Shown: positions 1,866 through 22,041 of the stretch, piece by piece | Position numbering within the stretch: the stretch's first letter is position 1 | Layout of the letters: each line of letters starts with the position of its first letter | Assembly (NCBI GenBank): GCA_947646015.1 | Contig: CANSEY010000039.1 | Location: 1-33,687, forward strand | DNA: 33,687 bases | Reading direction: 5' to 3' | DNA from: an uncultured Bacteroides sp. | GTDB lineage: Bacteria; Bacteroidota; Bacteroidia; Bacteroidales; Bacteroidaceae | The notes under the pieces: generated by a model | Told to the model about the DNA's origin: nothing | The model's input: only the letters and a program-made list of their open reading frames with translations | Database searches by the model: none | Program-made: the position numbers and the translations under genes

Positions 1866-2153
1866 TTATTTTCTTTTTTTGATTAGTCCTTCCTCCAGAA
1901 TTTGCTGGATGTCCACTTCTTTATAAAAGAATTTTCCACCGATATTAGAATAAGGAATCAGCCCGTTATCCCGGTAAGTCTGCAGTGCCCTTTTGGAAAT
2001 ATTGAGAGCCAGGCACACATCCTGCGCATCCAGTCACTTGTCCGGTGTTACGGGGGCTATTTTCTTTTGAAAGTCCATCATTTGCACGGACAGCATACTT
2101 AGTTGTTTCTTCAAGTCCTGATAAGCACTTGTTTCGATAATTGTCAGTTCCAT
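1866..2153 (-). CDS. Helix-turn-helix excisionase-like protein with in-frame TGA (Trp40 position)
   Basis: Read from the ATG at 2153 to the TAA at 1866, this is a 95-residue protein with one in-frame TGA (2036 to 2034, codon 40). The sequence after it, LDAQDVCLALNISKRALQTY, is the start of the Xis2c-like helix-turn-helix. In this Bacteroidetes family the residue before LDxQDVC is a conserved tryptophan, so the TGA stands where Trp is expected. Under the standard code the product would be a useless 39-residue N-terminus. There is no frameshift and no other defect. It is the first gene of a two-gene leftward operon behind a GTCA repeat array at 2237-2270. Standard gene finders would miss it or call it a pseudogene. 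Confidence 0.8.
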
Positions 2154-2190
2154 GATTTATAAATTAAATTGTGAATAATGAAATTGGGTG

Positions 2191-2221
2191 CAAGATAAAG
2201 GGAATATTACTATAAATCAAT
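2191..2221 (-). promoter_or_regulatory. Possible promoter of the helix-turn-helix operon
   Basis: On the minus strand a near-consensus -7 box TATCTTG (2197 to 2191) lies 38 bases upstream of the ATG, with a partial -33 (ATTG at 2221 to 2218) about 20 bases further up. It is one base short of the TAnnTTTG consensus, so this is only a candidate. The GTCA array begins about 16 bases upstream of the -33. Confidence 0.35.
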
Positions 2222-2236
2222 CGTTTAGTTTCCAGT

Positions 2237-2270
2237 GTCGTTAATAGTCATTAATAGTCATTTTTTGTCA
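2237..2270. repeat. 10-bp-phased GTCA array A (operator candidate)
   Basis: Four tetrameric boxes on the plus strand start at 2237 (GTCG), 2247, 2257 and 2267 (GTCA each), exactly 10 bases apart, so all face the same side of the helix. Two units share the longer form GTCATTAATA/GTCGTTAATA. The array ends nearest the gene 84 bases upstream of the ATG of the helix-turn-helix operon. Two further arrays of the same design occur at 15685 and 22112. Likely binding sites for a multimeric regulator. Confidence 0.7.
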
Positions 2271-2397
2271 GCGTAGCTTTTCTTATACTTTTTATTTAAC
2301 GGGGGAGTCGTGAAATCCGACATCCCTTATACAAATGGTAACTCTTTCATCTTTTTTCCTTTTTTGCCCTGCCACATTTCTTTATGATATGGATTTC

Positions 2398-18281: not shown

Positions 18282-18319
18282 GTTTACAACATTTAAATGA
18301 TTAATAAATTAAATAGGGA

Positions 18320-20332
18320 TTATTCATCGTCTGCCGTTTCCAGCAGGTGTTTCAAGTTGGGATCATTTTGGATGCGAAGCAGCTCTTTTTCGATGATTTG
18401 CGTCACGTCTTCCTTGATTTGATAGTAGTTCCTTTCGATTTCCTCTTGCATGTGGTCCTTACCATCCGCACCGGTAAAGTCGGTTATGACGGGGATAGGC
18501 TTGTAGGCTTTTGTTTCGGCGGCTACCCGTTCATTGTCCACCACGATCTCGCAATGGAATATCTTCTGTTCTATCTTCTCCCCGAAGTTGTCGCAGACAC
18601 TGCCGACAAACTCTCCTTGCGAGAGGTTGGAGATTTTGGAGGCAGGTATCAGCGAGTCGAGCTGGGTACTGATATTGGTTGAGGTGTCTTCACGGGTCAT
18701 ATTAATGGATTTGCGCTGTTGGAGCACTTTCCCAAACCTTTCAGAAAGGTTTTTCGCTGTTTCTCCGACCACTTGCCCGGAAAAGATATTTCCAATTGTG
18801 TTCTGGATCACCCGCGCCTCCTTATCACCGTAGTCACGTATTAACTGGCTGAAATCCTGTGCTCCCAGACATACTGCCACTTTGTTGCTACGGGCGGTAG
18901 CGATCAGGGTGTCAAGTCCTTTAAAGTAAAGTGTGGGAACCTCATCCACTAGAATAGAGCATTTGAGCCTGCCTTTTCGGTTGACCATTTTAATGATACG
19001 GGCATTATACAATCCTAACGCACATGAGTAAATATTCTGTCTGTCAGGGTTATTGCCGACGCACAAAACTTTGGGTTCCTCCGGATTATTGATATCCAGC
19101 GTGAAGTCATCTCCGGTCATAATCCAATATAAGGCAGGTGAGATCAGCCTTGATAGCGGAATTTTGGCGGAAGCTATCTGCCCTTGGAGCTGCTCCATCG
19201 CACCACCTTTCCATGCATCCATAAAAGGTGACAGGTAATTCTCCAGCTCCCGGTAAGAGGTCAGTATGGTGAACAGGTCGGAATACGGTTTATTCAATAG
19301 CTCTATGGCATGTGGGAAGGTGCAGAATTTCCCGTTTTCATAGATTTTAAGATACCAGATCACCGCCGCAAATAGCACAATCGGGCTTTCTACAAAGAAA
19401 TCTCCCTGCTTTTGAATCCAACTCTTGTTCAAATTTAACATGATTACATACGCTGATTCGTATGCATCCGCGATATCGGATAGAAACGAAGGATTGAGGG
19501 GATTGCACCGGTGGCTGTATCTGGGATCATCGAAATTAATCACATAAAATCCGACCGGCTTGGCATACTTATCCTTGTTTTTAAGCAGCTGGTTATAAGC
19601 AATTATGCTTAAATCCGGATACTTAAAATCATAGATATAGGCGGCGAATCCTTTCTCTATCTGCTGGCGGATATAGTTATTGATGATGGCATAACTCTTT
19701 CCTGATCCCGGCGTGCCTAATATCAATGAGGCGCGGAAGGGATTAATCACGTTTATCCAGCCTGAATAGGTCTTTCGTTGGTAACGGAAACGGGTGGGCA
19801 GGTTTACCGAGTATTCATTGGCAATCAACCTGCGCTCCTGCATGAAGCTCTCGTTCTCGTCGTTAAAGACGTCATCCATGAGTTGGTTCTTCAACAGGCG
19901 GCTGATCCAGGTTCCGGCGGTAAGCAGGCTGATATATCCGGCAGCTACGGTAGCTACATATAATAAGGTTAGAAGCGCGACGGGGAAGCGTGCCGTCAGT
20001 AAGAGCTCGCTACCAAAAAAGAGCAGCATCCCGGCTATAAGGTAACAGCCGATACTCCTTCATGACATCTCCACGTCCTTCCGTCCTTTCGCTCCCATGC
20101 AGGAGAAGAAAAGGAAGAGCAGACTGAAGGACTTGCTCACCAGCGAATGGGAAAACAGCCCGGTATCCCGCTGGAAATTGAGCAGTATCTTGTCCACGAC
20201 ACCGATGTTCAGGTTCATGGAAAGAAAATAGGGATAGCAGAAATAATAGACATTCATCACTAAAAATAGGATGCTGATGGCCCTCATGAAGTCAAGGTTC
20301 TTATTGAGCCCTCTGGTTTCGTCTTGTGACAT
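18320..20332 (-). CDS. TraG/VirD4-type coupling protein with in-frame TGA at codon 91
   Basis: A 670-residue type IV coupling ATPase that would dock the relaxase-DNA complex to a conjugation channel. Four membrane segments (about 16-39, 67-81, 94-112, 116-136) precede a Walker A LGTPGSGKS (about 205-213) and a Walker B region ILVDEVPTLYF, followed by the AQDFSQLI segment typical of the family. The TGA at 20062 to 20060 lies between EMS and RSIGCYL; Bacteroides relatives have a Trp in this stretch before the third membrane helix. Six other Trp codons are TGG. Under the standard code a 90-residue membrane stub would be made. It is in one operon with the relaxase, 33 bases downstream. In Bacteroides nomenclature this gene is often called mobC or traG. 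Confidence 0.9.
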
Positions 20333-20365
20333 AAGCGGTATGATAATTAATGGTGATACATTTTA

Positions 20366-21595
20366 TTAGCCCAGATGCGGACCTCTGCGTTTTCTCTTTT
20401 TCTTTTTCCCGTAAGGGCTTTGCGTCAGGTCGTCTGCCGGATACGGATAGGATTCCAAAGAGAATATATCAAGCAGTCCTTCCACCAGCTCCGTCTCTTT
20501 CATTTCCGGTTCGGACGGATGGATAACAGGGGCTTCTTCAGTCTTTTCCGGTGGGATCGTGCCGTACTTCCGGTTTATAACCGATGCCGAATATTCTTTG
20601 CCCAGAAGCGAGCCCTTGAATACGGTCTTTGAGTTATGGTCGATGTAGGTCACGCCATAGATCACACCGGAATCGTTCTGCCAGAGTATGGCGGCAATGC
20701 CTTTTCCAGAAAGTTCCTGCAGGAATCCCTGACGGGTGGGCTGTCCTTGCAGGGCGGTAGCGATAGCTTCCTTCGTCTGTACGGGTACGGGATGTCGGGC
20801 AATTCATTGTTTGCTTTTCACAAATTTCTTTTGGAGTGCCTCGTAGCCTACGCTTTTACCGATCTTGCTGGATTTGATGGCTACGCCGGTCCGTTCTCCT
20901 TTTTCATCGGTAGCCGCATAGACCAGTCCATGATAGGTCTTTCCCTTTATCGTCTTGTGGGCCTCTTCCACCGTTACATGGAAAAGGCCAAGCAGGGCTT
21001 TAAACTCCTTGACGGATTGGAACTTGTATCCCTGCATGACGGGCTTGACCACATTGGCTATCTGATGCTTGATATCCCCCTTCCGGTAATCGACGGCAGT
21101 CAGCGGCAGGGATTCCCGTCGCTCCATCTTCTCGGCGGGTAACAGATGGTATTTCCTCTCCAGCTCCCGGCAAACAGCGGTCGAGCGTTGCCATTCTTTG
21201 TAATCTTTAATTTTCTTTCCCTGCTCGTCAATACGCAGGGAGACGATATGGATGTGGGGCCTGCCGATATCCTCATGCCGGTAGATGATATAGGGTTGGT
21301 TGCCATATCCCATTTTTTCCATGTATTCCTGGCCGATAGCGGTCAACTGTTCATCGGTCAGCACATCGTCCGGGTGTGGATTTAATGAAATGTGGATAAC
21401 GGGCTTCTCAGTCCGGCGGTTAGCCGCCAGATACGGTTCGAAGGAACGGATGCAGTGCTGGATGGTCGGATGGCCGTCTGCCGGTTCCATGATCCGGTTT
21501 CATGCCAGTGGCCGTGCCTGCTGCTTGTCCACTTTTTCTTGATTGTAGTATAATGCCCCGTAAACGGAGGCTCCTGATGTTATTTTTGCAACCAT
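20366..21595 (-). CDS. mobA: MobA-type relaxase with two in-frame TGA codons
   Basis: Read from ATG at 21595 to TAA at 20366 this is a 409-residue relaxase/mobilization nuclease that would nick oriT. Motif I tyrosines lie in YGALYYNQEK (Y16/Y17), and motif III is YRHEDIGRPHIHIVSLR (about 129-145) with the HxH pair. TGA codons are at 21502 to 21500 (codon 32, PLA-TGA-NRI) and 20806 to 20804 (codon 264, SKQ-TGA-IARHP). Two TGG codons also occur. The C-terminus is very basic (KKKKRKRRGPHLG). Its start overlaps the end of the MobB-like gene by 16 bases, so the two are translationally coupled. The residues intended at the two TGAs are inferred, not known for certain. Confidence 0.87.
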
Positions 21596-22041
21596 TGTTC
21601 AAATTCTTGGGTGAGACGGATAATCTCCCGGTTGAGAGATATTAGTTCAATAGTCAGTTGCTCCAATTTATAGAGCATGGCAAGAGCCTTCTTTTCGGAT
21701 AGTCCGGTATGCAGAGCTTTGACTGCCTGGTTATAGTTTACTCCGATCCGGCGGTATTCGCTCTGCAGGTTGGTCAGCTTGATGTAGTAGTCCGTTGCCG
21801 CCTTATCTATTTTCACGACTTTCATCGGTTTGTCGAAAAGGGCGGCAAGGATGAACTGGGATTTATTATTAGCTCCCGAATTCTCAAAGAGCCTCTCAAA
21901 CTCGATGTTCTGGAGTTCGTCCAGACGGAATCCGTAATAATAAGAATGAAGTTCTGATTCCTCTTTGGGATTCCGTCCGCCTCTTCATTTGCTCGAAGTG
22001 TCAGCCCGTCCGGGTTTGCGTGTACTATTGATTTTAGCCAT
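21580..22041 (-). CDS. mobB: MobB/MobC-type relaxosome accessory protein with in-frame TGA at codon 19
   Basis: A 153-residue DNA-binding mobilization protein. A basic N-terminus (MAKINSTRKPGRADTSSK) is interrupted by a TGA at 21987 to 21985, followed by RGGRNPKEES and the MobC-like body: GFRLDELQNIEFERLFENSG, ANNKSQFILAALF, and a helical tail with NYNQAVKAL. Family members help the relaxase bind oriT. Either Trp or another residue could stand at the TGA, as the N-terminus is variable; Trp is assumed by analogy with the other genes. It is the first gene of the mob operon, preceded by GTCA array C. A fragment starting at 21825 would lack the DNA-binding half. Confidence 0.82.

Follow-up and report, generated by a model that had tools for sequence, protein, structure and literature searches.

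The stretch analysed here, referred to as the window, comprises 33,687 nucleotides of contig CANSEY010000039.1 from an uncultured Bacteroides species (assembly GCA_947646015.1). It is interpreted as the left-hand portion of a CTnDOT-like conjugative element of a lineage designated E1, whose right end lies outside the window. The gene set of a CTnDOT-like integrative and conjugative element (ICE) is present, including an integrase, a pair of Xis-like helix-turn-helix (HTH) proteins, an Exc topoisomerase, rteABC and mobABC (Table 1). The Xis pair was identified from its HTH_17 family and position only, while the names of the arginase-like, KefB-like and phosphofructokinase (pfk) genes were assigned by eye. 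Eight of the excision and mobilization genes contain in-frame TGA codons, and the way in which these codons are read is the subject of this analysis.

Table 1. Features of the window, the basis of their assignment and their use of TGA (lowest base of each TGA codon in brackets)
Feature	Coordinates	Strand	Basis	TGA and stop codons
Tyrosine integrase	254..1483	+	Pfam Phage_integrase	4 TGG, 0 TGA
xis2c-like HTH_17 protein	1549..1860	-	Pfam	0 TGA
xis2d-like HTH_17 protein	1866..2153	-	Pfam	Trp40=TGA (2034)
RibD-like gene	2527..3099	+	Pfam RibD_C, score under cut-off	4 TGG, stop TAA
Topoisomerase III (Exc-like, TopB)	3364..5439	-	Pfam/NCBIfam	Trp39=TGA (5323)
Nine-gene block (DUF6047, DUF3945/DUF4099, others)	5466..15599	-		0 sense TGA; stops all TAA/TAG
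M23 peptidase	15677..16282	+	Pfam	Trp43, Trp48=TGA (15803, 15818)
Toprim/CHC2 primase	16299..17258	+	Pfam	Trp53=TGA (16455), Trp317=TGA (17247)
D12-class adenine methyltransferase	17376..18281	-	Pfam	Trp57=TGA (18111), Trp248=TGA (17538)
Type IV coupling protein (T4CP) MobC, VirD4/TraG type, YWFCY	18320..20332	-	NCBIfam Bacteroid_MobC	Trp91=TGA (20060)
Relaxase MobB	20366..21595	-	NCBIfam Bacteroid_MobB	Trp32=TGA (21500), Trp264=TGA (20804)
Mobilization protein MobA (MobC_2-like)	21580..22041	-	Pfam/NCBIfam	Trp19=TGA (21985)
rteC	22167..22823	-	Pfam RteC	0 sense TGA, stop TGA
rteB response regulator	22999..24285	-	Pfam	stop TGA
rteA hybrid sensor kinase	24263..26680	-	Pfam	stop TGA
Cargo: MGS-like, arginase-like, glgP, KefB-like, phosphofructokinase	26903..33658	-		0 sense TGA; glgP and MGS-like gene stop TGA

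Across the eight genes, 12 in-frame TGA codons occur alongside 19 TGG codons, with no in-frame TAA or TAG. The 11 TGA codons listed in the initial annotation were all recovered in frame, and a twelfth, which it had missed, lies at 17247 (codon 317 of the 319 in the primase gene) and is also TGA in all three relatives aligned there. No TGA accompanies the 19 TGG codons of 11 other left-hand genes (the integrase, the xis2c-like gene and nine genes of the DUF block; Fisher p=0.0015) or the 49 TGG codons of the seven right-hand genes from rteB to pfkA (p=2e-6). The estimate of about 44 other Trp codons written as TGG was close to the 38 counted in 19 left-hand genes, or 42 if the RibD-like gene is included. 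As a stop codon, TGA is used by none of the 18 tabulated genes at 1549-22041, nor by the RibD-like gene, and within the same element it terminates rteA, rteB, rteC, the MGS-like gene and glgP. When translated through its TGA, the T4CP matches NCBIfam Bacteroid_MobC with 1058.9 bits.

The copies of the window in B. finegoldii DSM 17565 and B. faecis MAJ27 are 99.92-99.95% identical to it, retain all 12 TGA codons and show an unchanged 28-bp context at each of them; an assembly artefact is ruled out by this recurrence of 12/12 site contexts. The G001 copy has the same TGA letters at the positions inspected, and its methyltransferase gene carries two single-base indels. The more diverged E1 relatives comprise B. 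reticulotermitis, B. xylanisolvens XB1A and genomes G452 and G438, the first three of which share about 70-86% DNA identity with the window over the aligned parts. In these relatives, TGA is retained at M23 position 43 in three of four and at position 48 in four of four, at primase 53 and 317 in three of three each, at methyltransferase 57 and 248 in four of four each, and at MobA 19 in three of three. T4CP 91 is TGA in three of the four relatives and CGC in the fourth, which has a TGA at Trp192 instead. The relaxase is the most variable, with one TGA and one TGG at MobB 32 and TGG in 3/3 at MobB 264, while Xis 40 is TGA in the single relative tested (B. xylanisolvens). TopB 39, which had been described as a conserved Trp, proved to be so, as TGA occupies it in the two E1 relatives checked, which are 87% and 52% identical, and TGG in all six TGA-free homologues covering the position. 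The broader expectation that all 11 columns encode Trp holds within E1, except for two codons (GGG and CGC) of locus L007. Among distant TGA-free homologues, which were compared for TopB, T4CP, MobB and MobA, it holds for TopB 39 and T4CP 91 but mostly fails for MobB 32, MobB 264 and MobA 19.

Similar codons were found in further elements in a genome set holding one genome per species, in which MobB was searched in 399 genomes of the family, T4CP in 148 of the genus, and TraG in 393 of the order and 148 of the genus. Among the MobB matches listed, six bear TGA, one of them (G120) at a frame break, and none contains TAA or TAG. At least 24 T4CP matches contain TGA; among those listed, 17 have it as a sense codon, while in seven (G342, G518, G451, G263, G398, G251:C11 and G001:C9) it marks a frame end or break, G251:C11 being so classed by analogy. 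TAG or TAA occurs in two of the T4CP matches listed; one of these, plainly decayed with three TAG and two TAA codons, serves as a control and has no TGA. The TraG matches listed also include three with one TAA in the genus, one with TAA in the order and a TGA-bearing fragment in G451. A second lineage, E2, consists of CTnDOT-like ICEs in G494, G275, G452 (two), G476, G477, G479, G251, G001 and G299, whose TGA-carrying genes include those for TraG, TraK, TraM, ParA, MobA, MobB and T4CP, among others. A third, E3, was found by the TraG search in G731, a member of another Bacteroidales family. TraG 57 is TGA in 16/16 aligned E1, E2 and E3 copies and TGG in 17/17 aligned TGA-free copies, in a sample that is partly circular because some E1 copies were found via TGA, with position 57 itself not preselected. 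Trp 307 and Trp 332 of the same protein are TGG in all 33 aligned copies. E1 and E2 share TGA at TraK 36 (5/6 E1 copies; TGG in E3) and at T4CP 92 in E2 numbering (CGC in E3), and the position of E1 T4CP Trp91 is TGA in 10/11 E2 copies; ParA 31, MobA 59, MobB 24 and T4CP 42 are TGA in both E2 and E3. The protein identity between lineages sharing such sites is about 40-70%, and a single clade of TGA lineages was not rejected (approximately unbiased test, p=0.25). As a separate observation, insertions of about 2.4 kb, perhaps group II introns, split traG near codon 676-695 in several E1 and E2 copies and T4CP codon 306 in L161, L162 and L163.

Downstream of the first TGA, the ratio of nonsynonymous to synonymous substitution rates (dN/dS) is 0.00-0.20 in 14 genes, as estimated from two element pairs, and this purifying selection implies that translation has to yield the complete protein on at least some occasions. 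The TGA-holding columns contain 104 TGA, 41 TGG and no other codon in 13 E2 genes, and 39 TGA, 8 TGG, 1 GGG and 1 CGC in six E1 genes, these being counts over related sequences and so not independent events. Five E2 open reading frames (ORFs; d44609, o56782, o58790, o29450 and o27758) were excluded as upstream mis-starts or true TGA stops, and E1 topB and xisB, which do not enter these counts, were checked separately. On the evidence of these alignments, the UGA codons occupy Trp columns within each lineage and have been kept despite gene divergence, with the protein downstream of them under purifying selection. It is exceedingly improbable that the genes are instead decaying pseudogenes mobilized in trans by helper elements. 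They are broken under the standard code, and no TGA-bearing TraG was seen among the B. finegoldii candidates scored, but the stops within the window are TGA only, lie nearly all at Trp columns and are common to lineages of about 40-70% identity, and a dN/dS far under 1 past the stop already contradicts decay. The initial annotation had also dismissed decay, on the grounds that 11 TGA and no TAG had a chance of 1/2048; its conclusion stands, and the Trp columns and dN/dS values provide stronger support than that argument. Genes in which UGA closes a short peptide and the remainder begins at an internal start codon are highly improbable. Although ORFs with internal starts under translation table 11 do lie downstream of several UGAs, the codons fall within the Toprim (TopB 39), CHC2 zinc ribbon (primase 53), YWFCY (T4CP 91) and MethyltransfD12 (57 and 248) domains, two occur in each of MobB, M23, primase and methyltransferase, and they are swapped nearly exclusively with TGG.

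The exchange between TGA and TGG is far rarer than the corresponding A/G exchange at conserved Lys, Glu and Gln codons. In E2 it affects 8 of 40 Trp columns, where 237 of 433 Lys/Glu/Gln columns show the A/G exchange (p=2e-5), and in E1 it affects 2 of 18 as compared with 106 of 183 (p=1e-4). This difference indicates that the TGA sites are pinned, and it argues for selection on each of them and against a simple synonymous use. UGA is not freely swapped with UGG at these sites, and it still terminates regulatory and cargo genes within the element. Of the UGA-to-Trp recoding originally proposed, the alignments lend strong support to the reading as Trp; the recoding is not a free reassignment, given the pinned sites and the persistence of UGA as a stop. 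A genome-wide code in which UGA means Trp (table 4) is likewise rejected, since rteA, rteB, rteC, glgP and 25 of 120 ORFs in the element flanks end in TGA and release factor 2 (RF2, prfB) is present in all seven genomes searched. In five of these genomes prfB has the customary +1 frameshift signal, CTT TGA C, whose TGA marks the frameshift and not readthrough; the genes of G275 and G452 lack the site seen in the other five. Because UGA still terminates flank ORFs as well as rteA, rteB, rteC and glgP, its reading as Trp must be partial, conditional or local.

No tRNA-Trp with a UCA anticodon, as had been suggested, was found in the elements, flanks and host genomes searched. With default settings, ARAGORN detected no tRNA in the window or the long E1, E2 and E3 stretches except one tRNA-Lys, and Rfam found none in the window, L044, L148, L152, L169 and L170; a tRNA-Arg(CCT) is located on the B. 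finegoldii contig, outside its colinear part. At a lowered ARAGORN threshold only chance-like matches appeared, and the two with a UCA loop, called as tRNA-Sec in the window and an E2 flank, were taken as noise. In G001, the only genome typed fully, 73 tRNA matches were assigned, 72 with ARAGORN and the last by eye, and none has UCA, with 150 of 343 first-look candidates scored; unusual tRNAs could escape. The two tRNA-Trp(CCA) genes of this genome are identical and possess a 5-bp anticodon stem. Full-length tRNA-Trp homologues were found in 17 of 18 genomes, with 33 matches in total. The CCA tRNA sequence recurs without change in 29 of these; the other four (G448, G452, G477 and G155) also have CCA, with changes on both sides of a stem pair, and the 72%-complete G438 gave only weaker matches. 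Eleven copies from eight genomes were inspected letter by letter. Pattern scans of eleven genomes for a UCA loop plus T-arm likewise gave no UCA tRNA when hits were checked by ARAGORN (all 18 of G494, all 12 of G731 and 34 loci of other scans). Selenoprotein UGA codons are rejected, as the columns hold TGA or TGG and the sole Rfam SECIS_5 match reached 25.7 of 50 bits, far under the cut-off. Recoding by a phage-type suppressor tRNA finds no counterpart either, with no UCA tRNA found in the elements and hosts searched and UGA and UGG not freely interchangeable.

An efficient recoding might still be achieved by a hidden or helper-borne suppressor, either a divergent tRNA or a tRNA-Trp altered by modification or editing, whose source could be the element itself, another element in the cell or a phage. 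UGA would then serve as a normal Trp codon whenever the transfer genes are on, but this explanation is regarded as unlikely. Under it, the avoidance of TGA stops at 1549-22041, which extends to genes without sense TGA (chance 0.015), would look as if UGA termination were weak there, and gut phages accomplish such recoding, some without a detectable suppressor tRNA (PMC7886860). The co-occurrence of E1 and E2 points in the same direction, as both are present in G001, G452 and G494, i.e. in three of the seven E1 genomes, whereas 0.38 would be expected from the presence of E2 in 8 of 148 genomes (p=0.003); the two lineages may need the same host trait or aid each other. On the other hand, neither the ARAGORN and Rfam searches of the elements, nor the typed G001, nor the 33 tRNA-Trp matches yielded a UCA tRNA, and pinned sites would be unexpected were UGA and UGG equal.

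The TGA codons lie nearer to the gene start than the TGG codons of the same genes (relative position 0.30 versus 0.46, permutation p=0.015). T at position +4 follows 1 of 24 TGA codons, as compared with 7 of 25 host TGA stops taken from the flanks only (p=0.049) and 13 of 65 TGG sites (p=0.10); the 24 belong to the 25 TGA codons of the position test, primase 317 being too close to the gene end. Editing of the mRNA from UGA to UGI or UGG ahead of translation would likewise yield Trp at pinned, context-bound sites. It is nevertheless considered very unlikely, as the context common to the sites is weak and no deaminase was found among the window genes scanned, with six genes outside the scan.

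The favoured reading, to which a probability of about 0.6 is given, is that UGA constitutes a programmed leaky Trp codon that gates the transfer genes and is read by the host tRNA-Trp, perhaps with a helper. The position-specific conservation of TGA and the conserved downstream frame are both in keeping with programmed readthrough, and since no UCA tRNA was found and tRNA-Trp has a CCA anticodon, the host tRNA-Trp acting as a near-cognate is the simplest reader. UGA would then be decoded by the ordinary tRNA-Trp(CCA) in competition with RF2, with the possible assistance of a trans factor. The transfer genes would share a translational gate and so form a regulon whose output is normally absent or low and rises jointly upon a weakening of UGA termination or an induction of the element. 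A further, tentative step, with odds somewhat below even, is that UGA, kept by each lineage at set Trp positions throughout its transfer operons, acts as a translational lock and that the fidelity of UGA termination, determined by RF2 versus tRNA-Trp or by an element factor, switches the whole transfer programme.

Several observations weigh against programmed leaky decoding. No decoding factor and no translation factor were found among the genes common to E1 and E2, the strongest of which are core tra and mob genes; those absent from the TGA-free stretch of G439 comprise an integrase match, two small HTH-like proteins recognized by eye, one unrelated gene of the flank and some matches that are weak or antisense. 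Folding around the TGA codons gave no sign of a stimulatory RNA structure (p 0.12-0.47), the 5' bias and context signal are modest, and ordinary UGA leakage seems low for genes with two UGAs, such as MobB and M23. The columns are also less uniform in wider comparisons. With further E2 copies, TraM 285 is also CGT and TTG and a TraI-like column is ATT in two copies; between lineages, several TGA columns are non-Trp (in E1, ParA 31 is ATC or GTC and T4CP 42 is CTG or TGT), and one E2 MobB copy (G477, L155) has an internal TAA. To these are added the partial circularity of the TraG sample and the B. finegoldii copy, which may be moved in trans, a TGA-bearing TraG not having been seen among the 6 of its 14 candidates that were scored.

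The element had been taken for a mobilizable one, which is probably wrong. Near E1, beyond the part covered by this window, B. xylanisolvens XB1A, G452 and B. faecis (here on one contig with it) carry tra operons that contain such TGA codons as well, and the window element is therefore probably a full ICE. The same 33.7 kb occurs in B. finegoldii, in B. faecis with one segment inverted and in G001 with two insertions; these copies have three different left flanks, which shows recent movement of the element. Colinearity between the copies of B. finegoldii and B. faecis extends over 52.5 kb only. The segment that B. faecis MAJ27 carries in the opposite orientation to the window and B. finegoldii spans 15 kb (2514-17585) with an overlap of about 12-15 bp at the break points, and is possibly invertible. 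The insertions, of about 6.3 and 2.9 kb at 10418 and 12590 in the DUF6047 block, are shared by G001 and G002, an IMG/VR "virus" record of 29,012 bp that is part of this conjugative element.

If this interpretation is correct, the family would depend on the reading of a stop codon where its host still uses that codon as a stop, and horizontal gene transfer would possess an on/off switch at the level of the genetic code. The coexistence of UGA as stop and as Trp in one cell, and translation fidelity as a control of gene transfer in gut Bacteroides, thereby become testable. Standard gene calling would cut these apparently functional ICE genes or mark them as pseudogenes, and transferable elements in gut genomes may consequently be under-counted.

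To our knowledge, stop-codon recoding in standard-code hosts is known chiefly from phages, and no precedent in a conjugative element was found in the literature searched, mostly without subscription papers and without preprints. In gene content, the elements resemble CTnDOT and CTnERL, with int, two Xis-like HTH proteins, topoisomerase III, rteABC and mobABC in the window and TraG/J/K/M/N in E2; unlike E1, E2 and E3, the TGA-free relatives aligned carry TGG at TraG 57 (17/17). The coat protein of phage Q-beta is extended to a minor form by programmed UGA readthrough by tRNA-Trp. The elements are similar to it in that UGA is read as Trp at a fixed site, in the favoured reading by an ordinary tRNA-Trp, but differ in that many genes of one element contain UGA, several within conserved domains. 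In crAss-like gut phages, TGA encodes Trp mostly in late genes within standard-code Bacteroidota hosts, and the suppressor tRNA is sometimes undetectable (PMC7886860). Like these phages, the elements use UGA for Trp in a subset of their genes and reside in standard-code hosts, but here ICE transfer genes are concerned and no tRNA was found, while many of the phages possess suppressor tRNAs (PMC7886860). Here UGA is, moreover, pinned at particular Trp codons, as established in a comparison that covered ICEs. A tRNA-Trp(CCA) with a 4-bp anticodon stem reads UGA (PMC13092985) and provides a parallel for the proposed decoding by a CCA tRNA without a suppressor, with the difference that the host tRNA-Trp here has a 5-bp stem.

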